From: a virus
DNA: 40,373 nucleotides
IMG/VR virus record: IMGVR_UViG_3300036859_000624
Coordinates: 1-40,373 of that record
Strand: one strand, 5' to 3'
How positions within the stretch are numbered: position 1 is the stretch's first letter; each line of letters begins with the position of its first letter. Under the pieces are notes generated by a model, which did no database searches, was not told the DNA's origin, and saw nothing but the letters and a program-made list of their open reading frames with translations. Positions 3,592 to 40,373 of this stretch are shown in pieces. The position numbers were made by a program, and so were the translations under genes.

Positions 3592-4193
3592 TGCGAATCA
3601 TCACACTGGCGGTGGCGCTGCTCTTGGCCGGCTGCGCACGACCGAAGTTGGTTTCACCGCCGCCGCCCAGCGCGACCGCTCCCATAGATGTGGCGGCGAT
3701 GATGTTCGCTACGCCGGGGCGGGATCTCGGGCTGGCTCGGATCTTCGATAGCATCATGCCCATCCTGATTGCGCGCGTGGCTTACGCGCCTGGCGGGACC
3801 ATCGAGACGCATTCGACCTTCCTGAAGTTGGAAGGCTGCATCGCAGCGCTGGCGGAGGAGACGTGGGACCGGCCACCGACCAGGATGAAGTGGAAGCAGA
3901 CCTACAACCGCGGCCTAGGGATTTGCTACTTCCCACTGGTGATCGCCGCCGGAGAGACCCTGCGGACCGAAACCGGGGAGACACGGTGGGACTGGGAGCG
4001 CTTTGACAGGATCGCCGGGGGCGGGCATGGTTGGTTCCAAGCCTGGACGGTGCTCCAGGCCAGCCCTGACGGCCGGCGTCTCGATCTGGAGGAGTTCTTC
4101 GAGTACCTGGACCCGTTGCCGGATGAGCGGCCGTTTCACCGACGGTACCGGTTTGACGCGACGGGAATGATTTCGCTCGAGAAAGTACGGTGA
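3591..4193 (+). CDS. Predicted lipoprotein in the tail cluster
   Basis: A 200-residue protein with a clear type II signal peptide: MRIITLAVALLLAGC, with the lipobox LLAGC and lipidated Cys15. The mature part has a Pro-rich tether (residues 19-30) and an aromatic-rich globular domain with no family I recognise. TGATG overlap couples it to the gene before. A lipoprotein is odd for a virion; it may act in the infected or lysogenic cell, for example superinfection exclusion by an envelope lipoprotein, or it may be an outer-membrane lysis factor. Those roles are inference; the lipobox is seen directly. Confidence 0.72.
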   Translation: MRIITLAVALLLAGCARPKLVSPPPPSATAPIDVAAMMFATPGRDLGLARIFDSIMPILIARVAYAPGGTIETHSTFLKLEGCIAALAEETWDRPPTRMKWKQTYNRGLGICYFPLVIAAGETLRTETGETRWDWERFDRIAGGGHGWFQAWTVLQASPDGRRLDLEEFFEYLDPLPDERPFHRRYRFDATGMISLEKVR

Positions 4194-14506: not shown

Positions 14507-14555
14507 TGGCTTAGTAGTTTCAGTGAGTTCCGAAGGTGACGACTTATCTGGCAGT

Positions 14556-14592
14556 CAGGAGGTCGTCGGTTCGATCCCGACCAGGTCCACCA
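14556..14592 (+). other. Predicted attP core: 3' part of a tRNA gene
   Basis: Bases 14556-14592 read as the variable loop, T arm and acceptor 3' strand of a bacterial tRNA: T stem GTCGG/CCGAC around loop TTCGATC, then CAGGTCC, discriminator A and CCA. No matching 5' acceptor (GGxCCTG), D arm or anticodon arm is found upstream, so it is a fragment and not a working gene. The U at position 70 of the acceptor fits the G3-U70 identity pair of tRNA-Ala. It lies 23 bases from the integrase 3' end. A temperate phage that carries such a fragment rebuilds the host tRNA gene after integration. Confidence 0.82.
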
Positions 14593-14615: not shown

Positions 14616-15770
14616 TTAACCGGCTCTTGAGACCGTACGGTCTTTTCCGATCTTACCCGGTTTCATTTGCTGCACTCCTGCTGCACGGAGCAAGCCGTCA
14701 ATCCGTTTGGCGGCCTGTTGATGCTGCGCCGGCAGGACGTGGCTGTAAACGTCCATGGTGACCCGGATCGAACTGTGTCCCAAGATCTCCATGACCACCC
14801 GAGGATGAATCCCTTTCGATAGCAGGAACGTCGCGCAGCAATGGCGGAGAGTGTGAAAACTGCGGCGCGGTAGCCCGGCGTTATCGAGGGTAGCGTAAAA
14901 GGCCCGCAGGACGTTGCGGGGATAGATGGGGTTGCCGGTGGCGGTGGTGAAAATGAGATCGTTTGGTTTGCCGGGCTTGCCCAGGCCCGCCAAGGCGATC
15001 GCCGGCAAAGCGATCTGCCGGCGCGATTGGCGCGTCTTGACGTCCACCAAGTTCAGCTTCCCTTCCACAACCTGAAGCGCACGGCGCACGGTCAAGGTTC
15101 GGTGTACCGCGTCGAGATCCTGCCACTTCAACCCGAGCAATTCACCCTGCCGCAAGCCGGTGGCGAGAGCCAGGATGAAGAGCGGCCGCAGGCAGGTGTG
15201 TTTCGCAGCACTCAGGAATTTCTGGACTTCCTCCGGCGTGAGCGGGTTCATTTCGCTCGATGGCACCCGCGGCGGGCGGACGAGCGCGGCGACGTTGCGG
15301 TCGACAGTTCCCATGCGCATGGCGTCCTGGAGGGCGGCACGCAACACGACGCGGATATAGGCCACCGTGCGGGGCGACAGACCGGAACCGGTCTTCTCGC
15401 GGAGCAGATCGGCGACGTGATGAGGTTCCAGGCGCTGCAAGGGGCGAGGGCCGAGGAGGGGAATGATGTGCTTCTCTGCCAGGAAGCGGTAACTGGAAAT
15501 GGTCTTCGGGCGCAGGCGCGTCGCCGCCTGTTCGAGCCAGAAGCCGAGATAGGCTTCTACGGTGCTGTCCGCTTTTTCTCCGGAGCGGGTGGTTCCAAAG
15601 TGGCGGCCGCGGAGGAACGTATAGAGCTTACGGGCGGCTTCCTCGCGGGTCTGGCCGCTGAAATAACGTCGCCAGAGCCGGCCGTTGCGGTGGCCCAGGA
15701 AGGCGGCGGCGCGCCAGAATCCGCGCGGGTCACGGTAGATGGAACCTTCGCGGTTGCCGCGGCGCTTCAT
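14616..15770 (-). CDS. int: Tyrosine-family site-specific integrase
   Basis: A 384-residue integrase. ATG 15770 is chosen since it overlaps the upstream gene by ATGA and opens with the MKRRGNREGSIY arm-binding start; an in-frame upstream start would add 18 odd residues. Residues about 12-55 form the AP2-like/arm-binding domain, 60-160 the SAM-like core-binding domain, and 175-365 the catalytic domain with Arg207 (TGLRQGE), Lys245, His306-x-x-Arg309 (HTLRH), His332 (LGHSS) and nucleophile Tyr342. All catalytic residues are present. It recombines attP with the host tRNA site; the 3' end lies next to the attP core. Confidence 0.95.
   Translation of the reverse strand: MKRRGNREGSIYRDPRGFWRAAAFLGHRNGRLWRRYFSGQTREEAARKLYTFLRGRHFGTTRSGEKADSTVEAYLGFWLEQAATRLRPKTISSYRFLAEKHIIPLLGPRPLQRLEPHHVADLLREKTGSGLSPRTVAYIRVVLRAALQDAMRMGTVDRNVAALVRPPRVPSSEMNPLTPEEVQKFLSAAKHTCLRPLFILALATGLRQGELLGLKWQDLDAVHRTLTVRRALQVVEGKLNLVDVKTRQSRRQIALPAIALAGLGKPGKPNDLIFTTATGNPIYPRNVLRAFYATLDNAGLPRRSFHTLRHCCATFLLSKGIHPRVVMEILGHSSIRVTMDVYSHVLPAQHQQAAKRIDGLLRAAGVQQMKPGKIGKDRTVSRAG
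14631..14646 (+). terminator. Possible short terminator past the late operon
   Basis: A palindrome GACCGTACGGTC is followed by TTTT on the plus strand, just past attP and inside the 3' end of the integrase gene. The stem is only about four pairs after allowing a loop, so it is weak. It may limit late transcription running into the integrase from the opposite side. Confidence 0.25.
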
Positions 15771-16351
15771 GCAGCCTTGGCGGAAATCCAGGCGCTCAAT
15801 GGATGGCAGACGTATTTGAACCAAGCTCCGGGGCTGGCATAGATGGTGACCGGACCGCCTTCGGCCGGAATGGTCAGGATGCGGCGTTCCATCACCAGAT
15901 CGGAATAGCCGGCGCGCTCCACGGTTACCGAGCCAAAGATAATGTGGATCGAAAAATCCTGGGCGATCAGTTGATGATGAAATCGCAGGTCTTCGTTCAC
16001 CTTCACTTCGACCAGGACTTTGGCGACTTCGCCGGATTCGACGCGCGAGAGTTTAGCCATAGTGCAGCGGTGGGACCGGGCGAACCAGGAACCGTAGAGC
16101 AGTGGGTTGACGATCTCGGCGAAATCTGTGAGACGCAAAGCGGCGGCCTTGGCCAGGGACCGGGCTTCGCGGAGCACGGCCGGATCGAGCAGGATCTGAT
16201 GGAAGGGGAAAACCTGCTCGAGCTCTGCGGCTTCGAAAACGATCATCTGGAAGGTGGCCCGTTGGCGATCGGGCGGCAGGCGGCGCCAGGCTTCCAGTAG
16301 CTCGTACTCGGTGCGTTCAGCCCGATTTGCGTTTGCGGCTGGGCGTTTCAT
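15767..16351 (-). CDS. Unknown protein between integrase and repressor
   Basis: A 194-residue soluble protein in the lysogeny operon. It overlaps the repressor gene by 35 bases and the integrase by ATGA, so all three are probably co-transcribed. The N-terminal half is helical and charged (TEYELLEAWRRLPPDRQ); the C-terminal half is beta-rich. No helix-turn-helix, HExxH or other catalytic motif is visible, so it is not an ImmA-type protease. It could assist lysogeny or exclusion, by position only. Confidence 0.7.
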   Translation of the reverse strand: MKRPAANANRAERTEYELLEAWRRLPPDRQRATFQMIVFEAAELEQVFPFHQILLDPAVLREARSLAKAAALRLTDFAEIVNPLLYGSWFARSHRCTMAKLSRVESGEVAKVLVEVKVNEDLRFHHQLIAQDFSIHIIFGSVTVERAGYSDLVMERRILTIPAEGGPVTIYASPGAWFKYVCHPLSAWISAKAA

Positions 16352-19059: not shown

Positions 19060-19338
19060 ATGTCACGCGGCTATATCACGGTCTTGCTGGAGTGGCGGGA
19101 CGGTATCACGCCGGCCGAGATGCAGGAGGTCGGGAAGCGGCTGGTGCAGGTGATCGGGAAGGGCCTAGCTGCGGCTGCGCCAGAGTTAGGGATCGCGCTG
19201 GCGGTGATTGTAGACGGCCCCGGCCTGCCGACCGAGGAAATGATCGAGACAGTGCGCCAGCGGTGGATCGCGCAACAGATCACCGAGGAGATCGCCGAGG
19301 AGAACGCTCGAAGGATGAGGAAAGCGGGGTTGAACTGA
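19060..19338 (+). CDS. Early hypothetical protein
   Basis: A 92-residue alpha/beta protein; GGAGG begins directly at the previous stop and selects ATG 19060 over GTG 19057. It has a beta start (YITVLLEWRDG), two helices and a charged C-terminal helix. No motif recognised. It ends in a one-base overlap (TGATG) with the Gp157-like gene. Confidence 0.62.
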   Translation: MSRGYITVLLEWRDGITPAEMQEVGKRLVQVIGKGLAAAAPELGIALAVIVDGPGLPTEEMIETVRQRWIAQQITEEIAEENARRMRKAGLN

Positions 19339-19852: not shown

Positions 19853-20896
19853 ATGGCCATGAGCGGAATTATTCCGATCGAGAGGCCCGCGCCCGCGCTA
19901 GACATGATGGACGGGACGCTGAACACGCAGGCCCTGGTGAAGCAAGTGCGGTTGATCCAGGACGTGATGGCCGCGGTGATGAAAGATACGGAGCATTACG
20001 GCAAGCTGCCGGGGTGCGAAAAGCCGTCCCTCTACAAGGCCGGCGCGGAGAAATTATGCCTGGTCTTCCGCCTGGAACCGGAGTTCGAGATCGTGCATGC
20101 GGTGGAGGAGAAGGAGTTTATCGCTTTCACGGTGGGCTGCCGGCTGCTGCACATCCCGAGCGGCGCGCGGGTGGGCAGCGGGATCGGGTCGTGCAGCTCG
20201 CGAGAGCGGAAGTATGCCTGGCGGTCGGGGCAGCGGAAATGCACGGCCTGTGGGGCCACGGCGATCATCAAGGGTAAGGAAGAGTATGGGGGCGGCTGGG
20301 TATGCTTCAAGAAGAAGGGCGGCTGCGGAGCGAAGTACCTGGATGGAGACGCGGGCATTGAGGGGCAGGCCGTGGGGGAGATCCCCAATCCCGACATTTG
20401 GGACCAGCACAACACGATTTTGAAGATGGCCCAGAAACGGGCGTTGGTGGCGGCCACACTGGTGGCCACCGCGGCGAGCGACATCTTCACCCAGGATATC
20501 GAGGACCTGCCGGAGTTTGCGGCGAATGGCAAGAAGGCGGAGAGCAAACCGGCGCCGCCGGCCAAAGCGCCGGTGGACCGGGCGCAGATGATCCCGTGTC
20601 TGCGGACCTTCCTGGCCTACTACGAGTACATCGGGGAGCAGTGGCCGGAGATGAGCGGCGACAAGCTGCTGAAGCAATACGTGAGCCTGAAACGCGGCGG
20701 GTTCCCGTCTCTGGCGCGGATCCTGGAGTTTGACAAGCCGAAGCAGTTGAACTGGATTGCCCAGGTGAACCGGCAACTGGAGCATGACTTCGATTTTGCG
20801 GGGCTTAACGTAAATGCGCCGGAGCCTCCGGTAACGGCGGCGGGGCCGGAGCCGGAGCCGGCGTTGGACATCACGGAAGACGACATTCCGTTGTAA
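19853..20896 (+). CDS. Candidate ssDNA-binding/annealing recombination protein
   Basis: A 347-residue protein; AGGAGGT precedes ATG 19853. Residues about 35-75 show VKDTEHYG-LPG-CEKPSLYKAGAEKLCLVF, and about 195-225 show NTILKMAQKRALVAATLVAT, a pair of blocks typical of a phage family placed with Gp157 and thought to act in DNA recombination. A CxxC zinc ribbon (CTACG...CGAKY) is inserted around residues 130-165. The C-terminus DITEDDIPL copies the acidic, DDIP-ending tip of SSB proteins that recruits repair partners. A RecT/ERF/Rad52-type annealing role is inference from context and the tail. Confidence 0.55.
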   Translation: MAMSGIIPIERPAPALDMMDGTLNTQALVKQVRLIQDVMAAVMKDTEHYGKLPGCEKPSLYKAGAEKLCLVFRLEPEFEIVHAVEEKEFIAFTVGCRLLHIPSGARVGSGIGSCSSRERKYAWRSGQRKCTACGATAIIKGKEEYGGGWVCFKKKGGCGAKYLDGDAGIEGQAVGEIPNPDIWDQHNTILKMAQKRALVAATLVATAASDIFTQDIEDLPEFAANGKKAESKPAPPAKAPVDRAQMIPCLRTFLAYYEYIGEQWPEMSGDKLLKQYVSLKRGGFPSLARILEFDKPKQLNWIAQVNRQLEHDFDFAGLNVNAPEPPVTAAGPEPEPALDITEDDIPL

Positions 20897-23991: not shown

Positions 23992-24432
23992 ATGGAAGCG
24001 AAAAGCGGGGGTGGTAACCGGGTATCAGGAGATTCCGGTGACGATGGTGAAGGAATCGCCGTTGAGGCGGGGAAGCAAGTGTGGATCGCGCCCAAAGAGA
24101 AAGCCAAGGCGGATCCCGACCGGCAGAGGCTGGCGAAGGAAGCGAAGAGGCGCCGGGAGGAGAATGAGCAGAGTGAGGCGCTATACCAGGCGCTCTGCAA
24201 ACAGGCGAAAGGGACAGTGACGCTGGCGGACTGGAAGCTGCTGCTGTGGAAGGTAAGCGGCTATTTGAGAGTTCCGAGGCCGGAGAAGATCACCAACGCG
24301 AACCTGGCGAAGTGGGTGGTGACGCTGACCTACGAAGACGCCGACGTGAAAGAGCTGCAGGCGGGAGCGAAGCGGTGGGGGGTGAAGCTGCCGGAGGCTC
24401 AGCCGGCGCGGACCAAGCACCGGGGCAAGTGA
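23992..24432 (+). CDS. Last gene of early operon, hypothetical
   Basis: A 146-residue protein; AAAGGAGATGAGG precedes ATG 23992. The first 60 residues are charged and disordered, then a helical domain follows (LYQALCKQAKGTVTLADWKLLLWKVSGYLRV and NANLAKWVVTLTYEDADVKELQ). The basic tail ends 42 bases before a strong terminator. Its last 34 bases overlap a convergent gene on the other strand. No family recognised. Confidence 0.66.
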   Translation: MEAKSGGGNRVSGDSGDDGEGIAVEAGKQVWIAPKEKAKADPDRQRLAKEAKRRREENEQSEALYQALCKQAKGTVTLADWKLLLWKVSGYLRVPRPEKITNANLAKWVVTLTYEDADVKELQAGAKRWGVKLPEAQPARTKHRGK

Positions 24433-24593
24433 GCGCGTAATTCGCGGGCGCCGAAAGGTTGGTCGCAACGCGGGCAGGCGCGGAGGACTTTAGCCGCGCC
24501 TGCTTTTTTTTTGCGCCGGCCGGCGTTGATGCGCCCGGCCTCGGCGAGGACCGCGCGGCGGGTGATGGGGCGATGGCAGTGCGGGCAGGTCAT
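24399..24593 (-). CDS. Small double zinc-knuckle protein
   Basis: A 64-residue basic protein: CPHC near residue 3, CPRC near 41 and HLPRC near 58, fitting one zinc ribbon or two knuckles. GGAGG lies 8 bases before ATG 24593 and overlaps the stop region of the gene before. The central Arg/Lys-rich part (GRRKKKAGAAK) is encoded by the reverse of the early operon's terminator (24474-24512). It is last in the minus-strand operon and converges with the early operon. Confidence 0.62.
   Translation of the reverse strand: MTCPHCHRPITRRAVLAEAGRINAGRRKKKAGAAKVLRACPRCDQPFGARELRAHLPRCLVRAG
24474..24512 (+). terminator. Strong terminator of the early operon
   Basis: GCAGGCGCGG (24474-24483) and CCGCGCCTGC (24494-24503) form a perfect 10-bp stem with a 10-base loop, followed by nine T residues (24504-24512). 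This is a textbook rho-independent terminator for plus-strand transcripts ending after the gene at 24432. It lies wholly within the coding sequence of the opposite-strand gene 24399-24593. Confidence 0.88.
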
Positions 24594-24598
24594 GATGA

Positions 24599-24784
24599 CT
24601 ACCTCCAGTGCTGCCAAGCCGCGCGGCGGTCAGTGTGGCAGCGGGCCGGTTGCGCCCGCCGGTCCTGCGGGCCGCGTGCGGCCTGGTGCGGGACCGGATT
24701 GCGGCAGTACTCGCCGGCCCGAGCGCCGCAGCGCGGGCAGGGTACAGCGTCAATGATCCTGGCTTCGCGGGTCGCGGATGCCAT
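24599..24784 (-). CDS. Small zinc-finger protein of the phage CPxCGAxxGxxC type
   Basis: A 61-residue protein: VPCPRCGARAGEYCRNP...HQAARGPQDRR. The CPxCxAxxGxxC...H pattern occurs in many small phage proteins of unknown role. GGAGG lies five bases before ATG 24784, and the ATG overlaps the stop of the upstream reading frame as TAATG, showing translational coupling. The C-terminus is basic. Confidence 0.7.
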   Translation of the reverse strand: MASATREARIIDAVPCPRCGARAGEYCRNPVPHQAARGPQDRRAQPARCHTDRRAAWQHWR

Positions 24785-24999
24785 TAGTGCCTCCGTGCCC
24801 AGTTCTGCACCCAGCATCGGAGGCGGATCGCCTCACGGCACGCCGCGATCTGAGACTGCGTACTTTCGCCGCCGCGACCATCGGCGGCCTGCAGCTCTGT
24901 GAGTAGTATTGCTAGTTCGAGTGGCGACGCTTCCGCGAACGGATTGACGGGCTCAGTGTGCGGATAGGTGTCAATAGCGTGGCCGCTCGCTGGAGCGGG
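24784..24999 (-). pseudogene. Coupled reading frame lacking a standard start
   Basis: The frame is open from 24999 to the TAA at 24786-24784, which overlaps the next gene's ATG (TAATG). The translation looks real: YPHTEPVNPFAEASPLELA, then ILLTELQAADGRGG..., IAACREAIRLRCWVQNW. No ATG, GTG or TTG occurs in it; an ATT at 24975 would give 63 residues, the size of the neighbouring proteins. The frame starts inside the third copy of the repeated leader, where the ribosome site found in other copies is replaced. It may have lost its start by repeat recombination, or use ATT. Confidence 0.45.
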
Positions 25000-25024
25000 C
25001 TAGGCCGGGGACCGCCGGCGCGGG
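24981..25024 (-). repeat. Structured leader repeat, copy 3
   Basis: A 44-bp element identical to 25583-25626. It holds hairpin CCGCTC-GCTG-GAGCGG and a second stem GCCGG/CCGGC. It lies before the startless reading frame, but the GGAGG ribosome site that follows the other copies is missing. Confidence 0.85.
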
Positions 25025-25057
25025 ACAACGAGTGGCCGGCAGGAGTGAGGCGCGAGC

Positions 25058-25240
25058 TCACGATTCGCGCCACCGTCCGTCCGACCCGCGAACCCACTCG
25101 CGGGTGTACTGCGAGCCGTCCGGCCGCTCGTACGTGCAGCGAACCTCCCGCCATCGCCCATTCCCACTGTAGGTTATGGGGCGATCCCGTAGATCAAAGG
25201 GACACGGGATCCACACGTAGTCATGCACTATAGCGTCCAT
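25058..25240 (-). CDS. Small hypothetical protein, Trp/Arg-rich
   Basis: A 60-residue protein starting MDAIVHDYVWIPCPFDLRD. GAGGA precedes ATG 25240 and copy 2 of the leader repeat lies 17 bases farther upstream. It is rich in Tyr, Trp and Arg with a beta-hairpin-like pattern (CTYERPDGSQYTREWVRGSDGRW). No family recognised. Its stop overlaps the GTGAG...CTCAC hairpin near 25046-25062. Confidence 0.65.
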   Translation of the reverse strand: MDAIVHDYVWIPCPFDLRDRPITYSGNGRWREVRCTYERPDGSQYTREWVRGSDGRWRES

Positions 25241-25257
25241 GCTTTTTCCTCGATTGG

Positions 25258-25302
25258 GGCCGCAGCAAGCTGCGGGCTAGGGCCGGGAACCGCCGGCGCG
25301 GG
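25258..25302 (-). repeat. Structured leader repeat, copy 2 (variant stem)
   Basis: Matches copies 1 and 3 except that the hairpin is CCGCAG-CAAG-CTGCGG in place of CCGCTC-GCTG-GAGCGG. Two base pairs have changed on both arms (T-A to A-T and C-G to G-C), so pairing is kept while sequence differs. The second stem GCCGG/CCGGC is also kept. It lies just upstream of the ribosome site of the gene starting at 25240. Confidence 0.85.
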
Positions 25303-25368
25303 GTAACCTCCCAGCCCGCCGGCGCCAGCTCCGACTGGCGGCGGAAGTGAGGCGCGAGCTTTCACGCG

Positions 25369-25563
25369 CTAGAACAGCTGCGGATAGCGCTGGTGTAGCG
25401 TGGCTTGCAGTCTCGCCGCCACCTCTTCGACTGGTCCGCCTTCCGGGTTGGCGAGGATGATCCTGCGACCCGTCCGGCCGAAAAGCTCGTCCATCGCTTG
25501 GCGGCCAAGCGCAGTACCGGCGGCGGCCTTGACGAAACTGATTGCTTGCGTTTTGCTGTTCAT
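25369..25563 (-). CDS. Small hypothetical protein
   Basis: A 64-residue protein. GGAGGAGG before ATG 25563 selects this start and leaves out 39 shadow residues upstream. It reads MNSKTQAISFVKAAAGTALGRQAMDELFGRTGRRIILANPEGG and has helix-beta-helix character. No family recognised. The leader repeat copy 1 lies 19 bases upstream of the ATG. Confidence 0.66.
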   Translation of the reverse strand: MNSKTQAISFVKAAAGTALGRQAMDELFGRTGRRIILANPEGGPVEEVAARLQATLHQRYPQLF

Positions 25564-25582
25564 GTTCTTCCTCCTCCATTGG

Positions 25583-25626
25583 GGCCGCTCGCTGGAGCGG
25601 GCTAGGCCGGGGACCGCCGGCGCGGG
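25583..25626 (-). repeat. Structured leader repeat, copy 1
   Basis: A 44-bp element identical to 24981-25024, placed 19 bases before ATG 25563 on the minus strand, directly upstream of its GGAGGAGG ribosome site. Two hairpins can form, in RNA or as cruciforms. Confidence 0.85.
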
Positions 25627-25900: not shown

Positions 25901-25930
25901 AGAATAACACAGCTGCTGTAGAGGTGTCAA
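25901..25930 (-). promoter_or_regulatory. Leftward sigma70 promoter of the accessory operon
   Basis: On the minus strand, TTGACA (25930-25925) and TATTCT (25906-25901) are 18 bases apart, and the -10 is extended by TGn. Transcription should begin about 25894-25893, at the first ATG. It is independent of the early and late promoters, so the operon could be on in a lysogen. Confidence 0.68.
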
Positions 25931-26100: not shown

Positions 26101-26124
26101 TTGCGAGAGTCGGTAACTACGCGA

Positions 26125-26157
26125 GGCCCGGAACTTTCTCCGGGCCTTTTGCTTTTT
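26125..26157 (+). terminator. Terminator abutting the small terminase start
   Basis: GGCCCGGA (26125-26132) and TCCGGGCC (26139-26146) form a perfect 8-bp stem with a 6-base loop, followed by TTTTGCTTTTT up to the ATG at 26158. It lies between the late promoter and the whole late operon, so late genes need read-through. It may act as an antitermination switch. Confidence 0.85.
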
Positions 26158-26520
26158 ATGGCGCATCGGAAAAACATCGGTCTTACGGCGCGACAGACAA
26201 AGTTCGTGGCGCTGAAGGTCCGCGGACTGGGCGACGTCGCGGCGGCGCGCGCAGCGGGTTACACTGAGGCGACCGCGCTGCAAGGCGAGGTAGCCCGGTG
26301 TCCGCGGGTGCAAGCGGCCTTCGCTGACTTGTTGGACCGCGCGTGTCCGGACCCGCTGCTGGTGCAGCGGCTGCGCGAGGGTGTAGATGCGCAGGACGGT
26401 AAGCGAGCGGACCTGGGGCAGCGCCGGCAGTATCTCGAGCTGGCGTTGCGGGCCAAGGGCCGGATCGCCCGCGAGCCGGTCGAAGTTATTGGTCGCATCA
26501 CGATTGTGCCAGACCTGTGA
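26158..26520 (+). CDS. terS: Small terminase subunit
   Basis: A 120-residue protein directly upstream of the large terminase, overlapping it by GTGA. Residues 8-60 form a helix-turn-helix (LTARQTKFVALKVRGLGDVAAARAAGYTEATALQGEVARCPRVQAAF), the typical Terminase_2/HTH_ABP1 start that recognises the packaging site, followed by a helical oligomerisation part. ATG 26158 is taken; an upstream frame crosses the terminator. There is no ribosome site between the terminator T-tract and the ATG, so translation may be weak or depend on read-through RNA. Confidence 0.8.
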   Translation: MAHRKNIGLTARQTKFVALKVRGLGDVAAARAAGYTEATALQGEVARCPRVQAAFADLLDRACPDPLLVQRLREGVDAQDGKRADLGQRRQYLELALRAKGRIAREPVEVIGRITIVPDL

Positions 26521-27941
26521 CGACGCAGATCAGGATGAGCGAGCTGGTGAATCCCAGCCCGAAGCAGCGGGTGTTCCTGGACCACATGAAGCGCTACAGA
26601 TACGTGCTGTACGGCGGGGCAGCCGGCGGAGGCAAGAGCTACATCCTGCGGTGGTGGCTGGTAGTGTTCCTCATTGCAGCGTACCAGCGGTACGGCTTGC
26701 GCAATGTAGCGGTCGGGCTGTTCTGCGAAGATTACCCCAGTCTCAAAGACAGGCAGCTCGCCAAAGTCGAAAGCGAGTTTCCTAGCTGGCTAGGAAACTT
26801 GAAAGCAACGAAAACAGAAGGACTGCGCTTCAAGCTGCCGGCAGACCTGGGCGGCGGGATGATCTTGTTGCGGAATCTCGACGACCCCGCCAAGTACGAC
26901 TCGGTGGAGTTCGCGGCGATCGGCGTGGACGAGCTGACCAAGAACCCAAAGAAAGTCTTCGATGAGTTGAGAAAGCGGCTGCGGTGGGTGGGCTTCCCGC
27001 AGGAGTTTGTGTTCCCCTTCGCGGCCGGCAGCAACCCGGGGGGCATCGGACACGCCTGGGTCAAAGCGCTCTGGCTCGACCGCCAGCTACCGACTGAGCT
27101 GGCCGGGCACGAAGAGGAGTTTGCCTACGTGCCGGCGAAGGCCTCGGACAATCCGCACCTGTCGCCGAGCTACTACGAGGGCCTGCTGACGCTCGAGCCC
27201 ACAATGCGGCGGGCATACGCGGAGGGCGACTGGTCAGTGTTCGCCGGGCAATACTTCAGCTTGTTCGATGCGGGAAAGCATGTGATCCGGGCAGAACTGA
27301 TCGGGGCCCCGGAGTGGTGGCCGCGGTGGATCTCGATGGACTGGGGCTTCGAGCACCACGCCGCGGTGTACTGGCACACGAGGGCGCCGGGCGGGGCGGT
27401 GATCACGTATCGGGAGTTTGTCGCGAAACATCTGAGCGCGCCGACACTGGCACATGAGGTTGTGGTCAGGTCGCAGCACGAGAACATCGCAGCTTTCTAC
27501 CTCGGTTGGGACGCCTGGGCGCAGCGGCGCAGCGAGCACACCATCGCGGAAGAGATTGGCGCGGTGGTGGCGCAGGCCGGCCTGCCACTGCCGGCCAAAG
27601 CCGACGACGACCGCATTGGCGGCTGGATGCTCATGCATCAGATGCTCGAGGCTGGCGCGTGGCTGATCGCAGATAGCTGTCCGGCGCTGATCGCGTGTCT
27701 GCCGACGCTGGTGCGGGACGAGGTGCGCGTGGAGGACGTGGCCAAGGTGGATGGCGATGATCCGGCGGACTCGGCGCGCTACGGCCTGAAGAGCTATCTC
27801 TCCGAGCGCTTCAAGCCGGGCGAGACGCAATGGCAGGAGCGGCTCCAGGAGATGTCTCCGGCCGCGGACATCAACGCGCTGATTGTGGCGCGAAAGATGT
27901 GGGAGGCAAGGCAGCCGAAGGCGAGCCAGACATGGAGATAA
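26517..27941 (+). CDS. terL: Large terminase subunit (packaging ATPase-nuclease)
   Basis: A 474-residue motor protein starting at GTG 26517. Walker A is GGAAGGGKS at residues 33-41; Walker B is FAAIGVDE (132-139, with Asp138-Glu139); coupling motif SNPGG lies at 172-176. The C-terminal RNase H-like nuclease has Asp275 (SMDWGFEH), Asp332 (GWDAW) and Asp415/Asp418. It pumps DNA into the prohead at the portal and cuts concatemers. It is full length. Sequence alone does not decide between headful and cos packaging. Confidence 0.95.
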   Translation: MTTQIRMSELVNPSPKQRVFLDHMKRYRYVLYGGAAGGGKSYILRWWLVVFLIAAYQRYGLRNVAVGLFCEDYPSLKDRQLAKVESEFPSWLGNLKATKTEGLRFKLPADLGGGMILLRNLDDPAKYDSVEFAAIGVDELTKNPKKVFDELRKRLRWVGFPQEFVFPFAAGSNPGGIGHAWVKALWLDRQLPTELAGHEEEFAYVPAKASDNPHLSPSYYEGLLTLEPTMRRAYAEGDWSVFAGQYFSLFDAGKHVIRAELIGAPEWWPRWISMDWGFEHHAAVYWHTRAPGGAVITYREFVAKHLSAPTLAHEVVVRSQHENIAAFYLGWDAWAQRRSEHTIAEEIGAVVAQAGLPLPAKADDDRIGGWMLMHQMLEAGAWLIADSCPALIACLPTLVRDEVRVEDVAKVDGDDPADSARYGLKSYLSERFKPGETQWQERLQEMSPAADINALIVARKMWEARQPKASQTWR

Positions 27942-28669: not shown

Positions 28670-30897
28670 GCGCGTCGGCCTTACAACTCGTGCCACGGCC
28701 GCAGATCAGTGACGACGACGTCCAGCGGGCGCTGGTGTCGCTGATCGAGCAGCTAGCCGGGGAGCAGAAGTACGAGCATCGCCTGGCGGTGATGCGGGCC
28801 AGCAAAGCCAGGCAGTTCTGGAAGGGGATTCAGTATGGGCATTTCAACCCGCAGGGGCAGTGGGTGAATCCCACGGCCGGCATGGTGGGCGAGCAGAAAC
28901 CAGAAGACGCGCCACGCTTCGAGTTTGTCGAGAACGTGTACCAGGCGACAGGACTGATCATTATCGCGGCGCTGGCCAGCGCGGGAGTTCCAGGGACACG
29001 CTTCCTGCCGCAGGATCCGCGGGACCCGGGCGACGTCGCCTACGCGCGGCAGGGCGGGGCGATTCTTGACTACATCGAGAGCTGCAATCCGGACGCCTTC
29101 TGGGACTGGATCGAGATCGCGAAATTGCTGTACACCGACGGCCTGGTCGTCGGATATGCCAGGCATTTGCGGGACGCCGAGCGGTATGGAACAACACGGA
29201 AGCCAGACGTGCAGATGAAACCTACAGTGGTCCAGGAAGCCGGGTATCCGTGTCTGGAATGCGGGAGCGTCACGCCGTTCGGCAAGGCGCTGCAGGGCGC
29301 TTGCGCGGAGTGCGGCGGAGCGATTGATATCCAGCGGCCCCTGGGACCGCAGACGATGGACCTGCCGGAACAAGTAGGAGTGAAGGAGACGCCGAACGGC
29401 CGCGAGGTGGCGGATTACTTCGGCGTGCTTGAAACGCGAGTGCCGCACTGGGCCAAGAAGATCGAGCAGTGCCCGTATCTGGGGATCGAGATTGACGTCC
29501 ACGCGGCGAGTCTGCGGGCCGCGTTTCCGGAGATGGCCGAGAAGATCCAGGCTGGCTATGGCGGGGAATATACCTACGCCAGAACCGCCCGGCAGCAGGT
29601 CATGTCGCCGGCGGCGGAGGGCAAACAGGGAACATCGGCCACCGAGCTGGTGACCTACCGGCGGTGGTGGCTGCGGCCGGAGGCCTTCTGGGTGCTGGAC
29701 CAGGAGATACGCGACGAACTGCTGGCGCGGTTCCCCAAGGGCGTCCGCTGCGAGCTGGCCGGGGATCTGTACCTGACTTCCGCGCCGGAGGCGATGCAGG
29801 ATCACGTGCGGCTGTGCCGCGGCATTCCCGGTGACGGGATGTTCACGCCCGCGCTGGGCGAGAGCTTCATCGAAGAGCAGGAGATGCACAACGAGGCGGT
29901 CAACCTGAACTTCGAAGCGATGGAGACGAGCGCGTTTGCGCCGATCCTGTACGACTCTGGGGCGCTCGATCAAGGCGCGGTGAGCCAACGCCTGCGGCCC
30001 GGAGAATGGAAGCCGGTACCGGTGCGGCAGGGCAAGGCATTGCGCGAATCGGTGTGGCAGCCGGAGGTGAAGGAGCAAAGCAGGGCGGCCGAGGCGCAGA
30101 AAGAACGCTCCATGGCGATGGCCCAGTACCTGACCGGGGCGCAGCCGGCGCTGTTCGGCGCCAGCCAAGAGAACGTGAGCACGCTGGGCGGCCAGCAACT
30201 GATGCGGAACCAGGCCATGCAGCGCCAGGGGATCCCGTACCAGGCAGCGAAGAGCTTCAAGAGCCAGATGGACCTGCTGTTGGTGCAGGAATTCGCGCGG
30301 AACCGGACGGACGACGTGTTCTACGCAGTGGCCGGGAAAGGACCGCAAGACTTCGAGGTCCGGCAGGTGGCGACCGCGGATACCGAAGGGCGTCTGCTCG
30401 CGAAGCCGGAGACCACGGAGAGCGCACCGCGGTCGAGCGAGCAGAAGCGGCAGGCCTGGCAGGCGCTGCTGGCGAGCGGGAACCCTGCGATCCAGCAATG
30501 GACAACGCTGCCGGAGAATCTGCAGTTCGCGGCCGAAATCTTTGGGCAGCCTGACCTGTTTATCCCCGGCCAAGCGGCACGGCAGAAGATCCTGCGGACG
30601 ATCCGAAGACTAACCGAAGAGCAATCGGGGCCGGAGGGCCCGAGCCAGCAACCGGAGCCGTTCGTGGACGATCCCGCTCTGGTGGTGGAAGTGGTGCGGG
30701 CCTGGGCGGTCAGCGACGCCGGGCAGCAGGTGCGGGAACAGAACCCGGCGGGCTACGCGAATGTGATCGCATACGGGATGGCGGCGCAGGCGCAAATGCA
30801 GCCGCCGGCGCCGGCGCCAGAGCAAGGCCAAGGATTTGGGGCTCCGAGCAGTCCGGGGCCCGGGGAAGGATCTCCGGCAGCAATATCGCCGGGATAA
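28666..30897 (+). CDS. Portal protein, P22 type
   Basis: A 743-residue protein, close to the 725 of P22 portal. It follows the terminase region and precedes the scaffold. ATG 28666 overlaps the small gene before (ATGA). Residues 15-100 form the helical clip/stem start with FWKGIQYG...W, and 400-560 the crown and wing region. An inserted zinc ribbon lies at Cys196-Cys199 and Cys213-Cys216 (YPCLECGS, ACAECGG), a feature of some long portals. The C-terminal 45 residues are Pro/Gln/Gly-rich. It forms the dodecameric DNA channel at one head vertex. Confidence 0.9.
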   Translation: MSASALQLVPRPQISDDDVQRALVSLIEQLAGEQKYEHRLAVMRASKARQFWKGIQYGHFNPQGQWVNPTAGMVGEQKPEDAPRFEFVENVYQATGLIIIAALASAGVPGTRFLPQDPRDPGDVAYARQGGAILDYIESCNPDAFWDWIEIAKLLYTDGLVVGYARHLRDAERYGTTRKPDVQMKPTVVQEAGYPCLECGSVTPFGKALQGACAECGGAIDIQRPLGPQTMDLPEQVGVKETPNGREVADYFGVLETRVPHWAKKIEQCPYLGIEIDVHAASLRAAFPEMAEKIQAGYGGEYTYARTARQQVMSPAAEGKQGTSATELVTYRRWWLRPEAFWVLDQEIRDELLARFPKGVRCELAGDLYLTSAPEAMQDHVRLCRGIPGDGMFTPALGESFIEEQEMHNEAVNLNFEAMETSAFAPILYDSGALDQGAVSQRLRPGEWKPVPVRQGKALRESVWQPEVKEQSRAAEAQKERSMAMAQYLTGAQPALFGASQENVSTLGGQQLMRNQAMQRQGIPYQAAKSFKSQMDLLLVQEFARNRTDDVFYAVAGKGPQDFEVRQVATADTEGRLLAKPETTESAPRSSEQKRQAWQALLASGNPAIQQWTTLPENLQFAAEIFGQPDLFIPGQAARQKILRTIRRLTEEQSGPEGPSQQPEPFVDDPALVVEVVRAWAVSDAGQQVREQNPAGYANVIAYGMAAQAQMQPPAPAPEQGQGFGAPSSPGPGEGSPAAISPG

Positions 30898-31048
30898 GGA
30901 AGCCACCAAAAGGGGGTCATGCAGTTTCGCTATATGGCAGTAGGTTGGGCATGCCGACCGAAGGCAAAGTGCTTGATGCGAAATGGCCCCCGCTGATGAA
31001 CCAAGAGAAGGATCTCCGGCAGTAATACCGCCGGGATTAAAGGAGCAA
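30866..31048 (+). repeat. Duplicated portal 3' end around a short insert
   Basis: The last bases of the portal gene (about 30867-30897) recur with few changes at 31008-31038 (GAAGGATCTCCGGCAG, then CCGCCGGG-type sequence). Between them lie about 110 bp with a weak inverted repeat (GGGGGTCAT...TTTCGC and GCGAAATGGCCCCC). The unit looks like a local duplication or remnant of insertion separating portal and scaffold. Confidence 0.6.
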
Positions 31049-31054
31049 ACCATC

Positions 31055-32167
31055 GTGGCAACCGAAGTTGTCAACCCGAGTGCGGGGTTAGAGAGCGCGG
31101 CAGGAGCTGGGGCCGCGGCGCCGTCGCCAAGCGCGGGAACACCAGCCGCATCGCCTCCGGAGGCCGTAAAGCCAGACCAGGAACTCGGCCAGCCTGGTGA
31201 GGCAACTCAGCAGCAAGCCGAAGCGCAAGAACCGTGGAGTCGCGATCCGCGGTTCCGGGAACAACTCGACTGGATCAAACGCAAGGGAGACGTCGAGAAG
31301 GTCCTGGAAATCGCGCCCAGTGCCGAGGATGCGCAAACGCTACTCGAATCCGCCAACGCACACCAGGCTGACCTGGAGTTACGGCAGGCGGATCCGGTCG
31401 GATGGGCTTCGCAGTACGCACGTGACAATCCCGAGGGCTGGGGGCAGATCGCGCGGGTGACGACAACGGAAACGTTGCGCAACCTGGCGCGGAAGTTCCA
31501 GGCCGGCGGGGATGAAAACGGCGTCAACGCCGTCGAGGTGCTGCTGCAAGAACTGACCGGCGGGTCCGCGGCGGGCGGGCCGGGATCGCGGCCGGGGGCC
31601 GGGAACCAAGCGAAGCAGGAGCAGGAGCGGCTGGGGAACCAGCAACGCGACTTTTTCATGCAGCGCGTGGGAGAAGGCACCTGGAAGGCGGTCCTGGACA
31701 AGGTAAAACCTCTAACCGAGAAGGTGGCATTTCTCTCTCCGGAGCAGCGCTCGCTGTTCGACGCGACGTTGCAACAGCGGCTCGATGACGCGCTGGGGCG
31801 CAACCAAGCGTTTATACTGCGCATGCAGAACCTCCAATCGGCGGCCAAGGCGAAAGGCTACGCGGACGACCAGGTGCAAGCGGTAGTACAGGCGCACCTG
31901 GACGCGCTGCGGGGCGGCTTGCTGGACACCACGGTGCGGAGTTTGCTGCAACTGTTCGGACATCAGATCGCCGAGGCGCACGAAGCGAAGGCCGCGAAGG
32001 AAGCCAAAGCGGCCGAGCGGCGGGAGCCGGCCGGGGGCGGGGGCGCTCCCGGAGGCGGGGCGATGACTGAGCTGCAGAAAGACGCACGGCTGAAGGCGCT
32101 ACGCGCGGAGTTGGGGCCGGTCGAAGGTATGAAGCGCTATCTGGAGGAAGTGGCTGTCTCTCGCTAA
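31055..32167 (+). CDS. Scaffolding protein
   Basis: A 370-residue, highly charged, mostly helical and disordered protein located between portal and coat, as in P22 gene 8. GTG 31055 follows AGGAG at 31041-31045 by nine bases; the ATG at 30983 has no ribosome site and would begin inside the duplicated portal tail. The first 70 residues are Ala/Pro/Gly-rich, the middle helical (DWIKRKGDVEKVLEIAPSAEDAQ), and the C-terminal 50 residues form a basic helix, the usual coat-binding end. It guides head assembly and then leaves. Confidence 0.75.
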   Translation: MATEVVNPSAGLESAAGAGAAAPSPSAGTPAASPPEAVKPDQELGQPGEATQQQAEAQEPWSRDPRFREQLDWIKRKGDVEKVLEIAPSAEDAQTLLESANAHQADLELRQADPVGWASQYARDNPEGWGQIARVTTTETLRNLARKFQAGGDENGVNAVEVLLQELTGGSAAGGPGSRPGAGNQAKQEQERLGNQQRDFFMQRVGEGTWKAVLDKVKPLTEKVAFLSPEQRSLFDATLQQRLDDALGRNQAFILRMQNLQSAAKAKGYADDQVQAVVQAHLDALRGGLLDTTVRSLLQLFGHQIAEAHEAKAAKEAKAAERREPAGGGGAPGGGAMTELQKDARLKALRAELGPVEGMKRYLEEVAVSR

Positions 32168-39681: not shown

Positions 39682-40331
39682 GCGCCATCGCTACCAGGAC
39701 GTTTACGCAGGCTTTTGACGCGGTGCGGAGCCTGCTGAACGACACCGCCAACGACGTGTACACGGACGCCATGCTACTCGAAAAAGGAACGCAGATCCAC
39801 GGCGAGATCCAGGACGAGTTCGCCACGCACGGGATCCAGTTCGGCGAAGCGATCACGGCGCTGACCTACACCACGCCGAATACGAGCATCGGCAGCTTGC
39901 CGGCGGACATGGTCGAGCCGCTGGACATCTGGGAGCGGCTGAACACGAGCGAGGAGTGGCAGCCGATGACGCGCGTCGACCAACTCGATCCGCCGACGGT
40001 CAGCAATCCGGACCGGCTGACCTACTGGGAATGGTCGGAGGACACGCTGAAGGTGAACCCGGCGAGCGTGAGCCGGCTGATTCGGATGCGCTACCAGAAG
40101 CAGGTCGCGTATCCGACAGCATCCGCGACGATGGGGACAGAAGACGTGTACTGGGCGCTGGTATACGGGACGGCCTGGCTGGCAGCGCTGGGCACCGGGC
40201 GGGAGAGTTTGGCGGCCGTCTTCGGTCCGAAATACGAGGACCGGAAGGCGGACGCGCTGACGAAGCACGTGCACATGCAGCAGAAGGTGCGGCGCGGCCC
40301 GCAGCCGTACCGGACGGGAGTAAGCGGGTAG
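39678..40331 (+). CDS. gp4-like head-tail adaptor
   Basis: A 217-residue protein starting in an ATGA overlap. Residues 10-45 (AFDAVRSLLNDTANDVYTDAMLLEKGTQIHGEIQDEF) and following helices, then an aromatic middle (YWEWSEDTLKVNPASVSRLIRMRY), fit phage adaptor/neck proteins that bind beneath the portal, such as P22 gp4, and the gene precedes the gp10-like factor as in P22. The last 27 codons lie in the repeated end and are seen again at 1-85. Confidence 0.7.
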   Translation: MSAIATRTFTQAFDAVRSLLNDTANDVYTDAMLLEKGTQIHGEIQDEFATHGIQFGEAITALTYTTPNTSIGSLPADMVEPLDIWERLNTSEEWQPMTRVDQLDPPTVSNPDRLTYWEWSEDTLKVNPASVSRLIRMRYQKQVAYPTASATMGTEDVYWALVYGTAWLAALGTGRESLAAVFGPKYEDRKADALTKHVHMQQKVRRGPQPYRTGVSG

Positions 40332-40373
40332 AGTCCAAAAACAGAAAGGCCGCGAGGCCAAGAAAGGACAAAA
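40247..40373. repeat. 127-bp terminal direct repeat, right copy
   Basis: Identical to bases 1-127. Removing one copy gives a circle of about 40,246 bp with the adaptor gene intact and leading into the gene at 132. Confidence 0.95.

Follow-up and report, generated by a model that had tools for sequence, protein, structure and literature searches.

Tiny orphan genes turn over fast in the accessory regions of phages, and their entry together with working start signals is rarely visible. One virus record, analysed here over its whole length of 40,373 bases (the window), contains an operon of small genes in which a short element occurs three times (Table 1). The question raised by this locus is what the element is: a structured RNA leader, a palindromic mobile repeat, the trace of a duplication, or a seam at which small genes are exchanged. 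We tentatively favour the last of these, with a probability of roughly 0.4, and suggest that the core of the element is the conserved seam and leader of an array of swappable mini-gene cassettes in the accessory operon.

A small-gene operon with three repeat copies

The window encodes both terminase subunits and a tyrosine integrase and therefore derives from a temperate tailed phage. The first and last 127 bp are identical (1–127 and 40247–40373). This may be a direct repeat at the termini, or the two ends may overlap in a circular assembly. The phage group is uncharacterised and poorly sampled: the closest terminase relatives in IMG/VR are 63% (L013) and 55% identical, and identity to known phages is about 30% for the best relatives. 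Beside the integrase gene, positions 14548–14592 (plus strand) hold a tRNA-like 3′ half (CTGGCAG...CCACCA); by eye it resembles a tRNA-Ala whose anticodon is GGC, and Rfam gives it a weak tmRNA score (E 1e-4). It is likely to be the attP. The tRNA-Ala-like attP end was absent from the sampled Fibrobacterota (41), Planctomycetota (119) and Pseudomonadota (120).

The operon has a single promoter-like site, a sigma-70-type sequence before gene A (0.3 expected by chance), and none of the core junctions contains another. This promoter is very near the gene A ATG, so the first message probably has little or no leader. A search of the minus strand of the region for a T-tailed hairpin (intrinsic terminator) found none. 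We rejected the core as a promoter because it holds no sigma-70-like site, and as an intrinsic terminator because no stem-loop on the minus strand runs into a T tract. On the plus strand, a rightward terminator-like hairpin of 10 pairs with a T-rich tail lies at 26123–26148, inside the listed small terminase ORF. It falls just inside the listed TTG start (26101), so the small terminase gene probably begins further downstream.

Table 1 Coordinates of the features discussed (window positions unless stated)
Feature	Position	Strand	Remarks
Virus record IMGVR_UViG_3300036859_000624, IMG/VR			40,373 bases = window
Tyrosine integrase	14616–15824	minus	
Minus-strand operon, genes A to F	25893–24399	minus	directly before terminase genes
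Gene F, small Cys-rich zinc-ribbon-like protein	24399–24593	minus	no Pfam match above cut-off
Gene E, zinc-finger-like	24599–24784	minus	PF24623, below Pfam cut-off
ORF D	24784–24999	minus	open from TAG inside core CD
Core copy CD, 44 nt	24981–25024	minus	same as AB; abuts ORF D
X box after gene C: AGCTCGCGCCTCACTCCTGCCG	25037–25058	minus	overlaps last base of stop codon
Gene C, 60 aa, cassette 2	25058–25240	minus	credible relatives not found
Y flank of gene C: CCAATCGAGGAAAAAGC	25241–25257	minus	with ribosome site; from flank comparison
Core copy BC, 45 nt, variant	25258–25302	minus	hairpins 25282–25297 and 25260–25275
X box after gene B: AGCTCGCGCCTCACTTCCGCCG	25339–25360	minus	
Gene B, 64 aa, cassette 1	25369–25563	minus	relatives not found
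Y flank of gene B: CCAATGGAGGAGGAAGAAC	25564–25582	minus	with ribosome site; homologous to gene C Y flank, shuffle p below 1/2000
Core copy AB, 44 nt	25583–25626	minus	hairpins 25606–25621 and 25585–25600
Gene A, 67 aa	25690–25893	minus	first gene of minus-strand operon
Sigma-70-type promoter TTGACA-18-TATTCT	25901–25930	minus	10/12, TG before −10
Small terminase subunit (terS)	26101–26520		
Large terminase subunit (terL)	26517–27941		
GTAG-tagged REP-like hairpins of L023	1000, 3807–3893, 15499, 19214–19292, 20506–20587		L023 positions

All three copies of the element are present on the minus strand where they had been predicted, and the two expected to be identical are so (AB against CD, 44/44). 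Relative to these, the BC core has one extra C and 8 substituted positions. A search with a 24-letter degenerate core pattern that allows up to three mismatches finds just the three copies and gives no match in 100 dinucleotide shuffles. The core ends 19 nt before the ATG of gene B and 17 nt before that of gene C, in agreement with the original prediction of 17–19 nt. That prediction also had every copy preceding a small gene, which is true of genes B and C but not of the third copy, because this leads into ORF D, which has no usable start. Its length of 44–45 bp describes the core, but homology runs further, into different flanks at each junction.

The head of ORF D contains no ATG, GTG or TTG, yet at its other end the stop codon and the gene E start overlap as TAATG. 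ORF D is probably a gene with a lost 5′ end, or else one with an unusual start; joining of the array may have removed its true start. For genes B and C, no credible relatives were found in IMG/VR or in terminase-related loci. Two matches to gene C were rejected because both depend on a TYSGNGRW stretch that belongs to a large, unrelated phage protein. Compared with each other, proteins A, B and C are not convincingly similar.

Flank pattern and cassette geometry

For comparison, each junction was taken to run from the stop of the preceding gene to the following start, and similarity was scored against shuffles (n = 2,000). AB and BC are homologous in the 3′ flank, which includes the ribosome site and extends as far as the ATG (0/2000 shuffles as good; p below 1/2000), and have no homology in the 5′ flank (p 0.8). 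BC and CD are homologous in the 5′ flank, for about 36 nt from the stop (0/2000 shuffles; p below 1/2000), and have no homology in the 3′ flank. AB and CD have the core alone in common, their flanks not being significantly similar. The locus therefore reads CORE-Y-B-X-CORE-Y-C-X-CORE. The X box, AGCTCGCGCCTCACTYCYGCCG, follows B and C and has no further copy in the window. Three cores thus stand around two genes in an n+1 arrangement, with the neighbours A and D outside the homology. The ends of the two cassettes are 81–82% identical, and their middles are unrelated except for one 18-nt match in different frames.

This flank mosaic appears best explained by exchange of small genes through a common leader or seam, and the cassette geometry points to recombination at the repeat, which the original prediction did not propose. 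Each cassette would consist of a core, a ribosome site (Y), one tiny gene and a 3′ box (X), with a closing core at the end of the array. Recombination through the repeated core would allow tiny genes to be gained or replaced, and a single cassette with a BC-type core, inserted into an AB-type one, would account for identical outer cores and a divergent inner core. In the message, each core is predicted to fold into two short hairpins that end 17–19 nt before the ATG. Because the hairpins would end just outside the ribosome footprint, an incoming gene would receive a ready structured leader and ribosome site. The core may also affect translation or message stability.

The same n+1 geometry can arise by tandem duplication, with fast gene divergence and conversion of the outer cores, which counts against cassette swapping, as does the fact that we found no second phage or empty site and that there are two cassettes only. 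In its neutral form, this alternative holds that a unit of gene plus leader was doubled, that the genes then diverged or decayed, and that the palindromes are incidental and have no present function. The n+1 geometry follows directly from such an event, the hairpins are as stable as shuffles of this 82–85% GC sequence, and the 18-nt match in the middles of the two cassettes may be a relic. The leaders, however, are 81–82% alike around unrelated coding middles, the reverse of what neutral decay of leaders would produce, and identical outer cores around a divergent inner core do not fit one duplication without later conversion. We regard neutral duplication as distinctly improbable.

The value of the cassette reading lies in joints that can still be read here: a common core, a ribosome-site flank on one side, a 3′ box on the other and unrelated genes between. 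If it is confirmed in relatives, swapping of mini-genes via a leader repeat becomes directly testable. The finding rests on one locus in one phage and on about one structural change.

Two hairpins and a paired change

The original prediction described a single hairpin in which both arms change together, from CCGCTC/GAGCGG to CCGCAG/CTGCGG. In fact there are two hairpins in the element, with CTAGC or CCTAGC as the linker. Hairpin 1 is GCCGG-N6-CCGGC, and hairpin 2 is CCGCTC-CAGC-GAGCGG in AB and CD and CCGCAG-CTTG-CTGCGG in BC. Both arms of hairpin 2 do change, as described, but only in the two inner pairs, accompanied by a change of tetraloop from CAGC to CTTG. One contiguous 8-nt block that includes this tetraloop holds seven of the eight substitutions, and these amount to about one event. 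The remaining substitution lies in the loop of hairpin 1 and the extra C in or beside the linker, so neither hairpin has a broken pair. All 11 of 11 pairs are intact in every copy, with the two inner pairs of hairpin 2 changed on both sides.

These changes had been taken as a sign of selection on structure, and it is possible to regard the core as a regulatory RNA leader, in which the hairpins bind a phage or host protein, or form a processing or antitermination site, and the pairing is selected. Such a role would suit the fixed position of the core before the ATG of two genes, and the 9 differences between the core types leave every pair intact, an outcome seen in 0.5–1.3% of draws when changes are drawn independently. 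One random block at a random place keeps all pairs at a similar rate (0.7–1.3% of draws). When the block is held at the observed place and all four stem letters are changed, by contrast, both inner pairs are kept in 23% of draws, which weakens the argument, given that the substitutions form about one event. Shuffling of pairing partners attains the observed covariation score in 50/500 cases, and the folding stability of cores, leaders and whole junctions lies close to that of dinucleotide shuffles (z −1.2 to +0.5). The third copy, moreover, leads to no usable start, and the element has no Rfam match.

Selection on structure is thus not shown by the block draws, the partner shuffles or the folding scores. 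Because the block is about one event, and the covariation and stability are matched by shuffles, the structure is consistent with the data, short of demonstration. We consider a regulatory leader unlikely as the main explanation of the repeat. RNA stability no higher than composition predicts also counts against the cassette-swapping model, in which the core serves as a structured leader.

Start-associated repeats in relatives and known systems

Outside this phage, we found no relatives of the element, as far as pattern and model searches reach; the searched collections may leave out near-identical records. Patterns for the core and for hairpin 2 gave only scattered single matches in unrelated sequence in IMG/VR. 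A strict 20-letter pattern gave eight matches in GTDB contigs, all without the hairpin, five of which represent one conserved Streptomyces stretch. The element is absent from known phages and from the 63% terminase relative, and plasmid matches to the core were rejected because they lie in polyketide synthase genes. A covariance model run on the window and 93 loci scored above 20 bits for the three training copies alone, and a scan of the window and locus with Rfam 15 gave no match at gathering score and none that was credible at E up to 5.

A terminase relative (L023, terL 53% identical) carries intergenic elements of the form GTAG-C-(7 bp)-4 nt-(7 bp), which are REP-like (Table 1). Two stem versions occur, GCCGGGC/GCCCGGC and GCCGCCC/GGGCGGC, whose inner pairs differ in a compensated way; some elements stand in opposed pairs and several lie shortly 5′ of gene starts.

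Other terminase relatives also have repeats that adjoin gene starts. L077 has a repeated block of 60–70 nt (2338, 3535, 8921) with TTGATT-17-TATAAT, two copies of which continue straight into an ATG and so form a repeated start-associated promoter. In L075, several small genes share a repeated AT-rich leader (3808, 4264, 4596, 5644, 6216, 6390) that continues through their start and initial codons (ATGAAGAAAGAA). The window itself contains a second, unrelated repeat in the structural operon (30865–30900 and 31007–31044, plus strand; 36–38 nt, about 89–94% identical), which can fold as a bulged hairpin (AUC-CCGGC...GCCGG-GAU). Shortly downstream of each copy is a ribosome site; that of the first copy precedes a 25-codon ORF at about 30920, read by eye, and that of the second a probable GTG start at 31055. 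The start-adjacent repeats of the terminase relatives each have their own sequence, which suggests a recurring habit rather than one common family.

REPs are palindromes of 20–40 bp with a GTAG or CGTC tag and a 6–13 bp stem (PMC3733652). The core resembles REPs and BIMEs in being intergenic, with a tag adjoining a stem that varies among copies. The tagged hairpin 2 (6-bp stem, 4-nt loop) is a palindrome of the REP kind. It reads CTAG-C-(6 bp)-4 nt-(6 bp), and because L023 has the same plan of TAG, C, stem and tetraloop, a REP-like origin is possible, in which a host palindromic repeat family was acquired by the phage and multiplied in the operon. The change in the inner stem is of the same sort in both phages, and the stem of hairpin 2 varies among copies yet stays paired, as in REP families. 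The suggestion in the original prediction that the element is a palindromic mobile repeat thus draws some indirect support from L023, but the tag, the copy number and the flank homology fit it poorly. The tag is CTAG in all 3/3 copies, rather than GTAG or CGTC; the three copies lie in one operon and one orientation with no opposed pairs; and the flanks with the ribosome site belong to the repeat, which would not be expected from simple insertion. Neither the window nor the L023 record encodes a RAYT transposase (PF01797). Since a RAYT would be expected in the host genome and need not accompany every REP, its absence here is weak evidence. Searches of GTDB contigs and of 294 Planctomycetota genomes with strict, exact patterns did not reveal a repeat family. 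We judge a REP-like origin rather unlikely.

In integrons, n+1 structured attC sites bound small, promoterless genes of one orientation. The cores stand around promoterless small genes on one strand in the same way, keep their structure while the sequence varies, and occur in a phage whose tyrosine integrase is weakly similar to integron integrases, so that the cores could be imagined as attC-like folded single-strand sites used by the integrase. But the AB and CD cores lack the GTTRRRY/RYYYAAC pair and GTTCCCG in BC misfits, and the integrase scores 55 bits against the integron model TIGR02249, far below its cut-off of 265, and lies beside a tRNA-like attP like an ordinary prophage integrase. 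Core sequence and integrase both misfit, which excludes integron attC sites, and an integron-like array seems to us barely credible. A phage-encoded cassette system that does without an integron integrase, in which double-hairpin sites, recognised by their structure, would bound tiny promoterless genes in n+1 fashion, direct their gain and loss as folded single-stranded DNA and also serve as leaders for their translation, is very unlikely.

Repeated intergenic hairpins or boundary sequences have been proposed to aid gene shuffling in accessory regions in other phages, among them the promoter early stem-loops of T4-type phages and the boundary sequences of lambdoid phages. The core differs from both in its unrelated sequence and in having no promoter.

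The repeat is real and tidy, yet it resembles start-associated repeats known from other phages. The SAS and ESAS of cluster K mycobacteriophages are start-associated repeats of unproven function that are absent or nearly so from hosts and other phages. ESAS are about 46–47 bp long, with inverted repeats and a putative SigA-like promoter, and the authors who described them saw little support for RNA hairpins. SAS/ESAS and the core are alike in being short, mostly in one orientation and in unusually wide intergenic gaps just before the starts of non-structural genes. As in SAS/ESAS, the repeat lies just 5′ of small non-structural gene starts, for B and C, though not for the third copy. The 13-bp SAS/ESAS sequence GGGATAGGAGCCC that adjoins the start codon is replaced here by the leaders CCAATGGAGGAGGAAGAAC-ATG and CCAATCGAGGAAAAAGC-ATG. 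Whereas ESAS have one 17-bp imperfect inverted repeat pair with SigA-like hexamers, the core has two separate small hairpins with 5–6 bp stems and no promoter. The core also differs in its unrelated sequence, in having three copies in one operon and in the cassette pattern of its 3′ boxes. It is not a member of SAS/ESAS, because their defining sequences and promoter are absent. SAS/ESAS are nonetheless the nearest described phenomenon, and the core appears to be the same sort of thing with cassette geometry in addition. What is new here is the anatomy of the locus, in its flank pattern and its cassette geometry.
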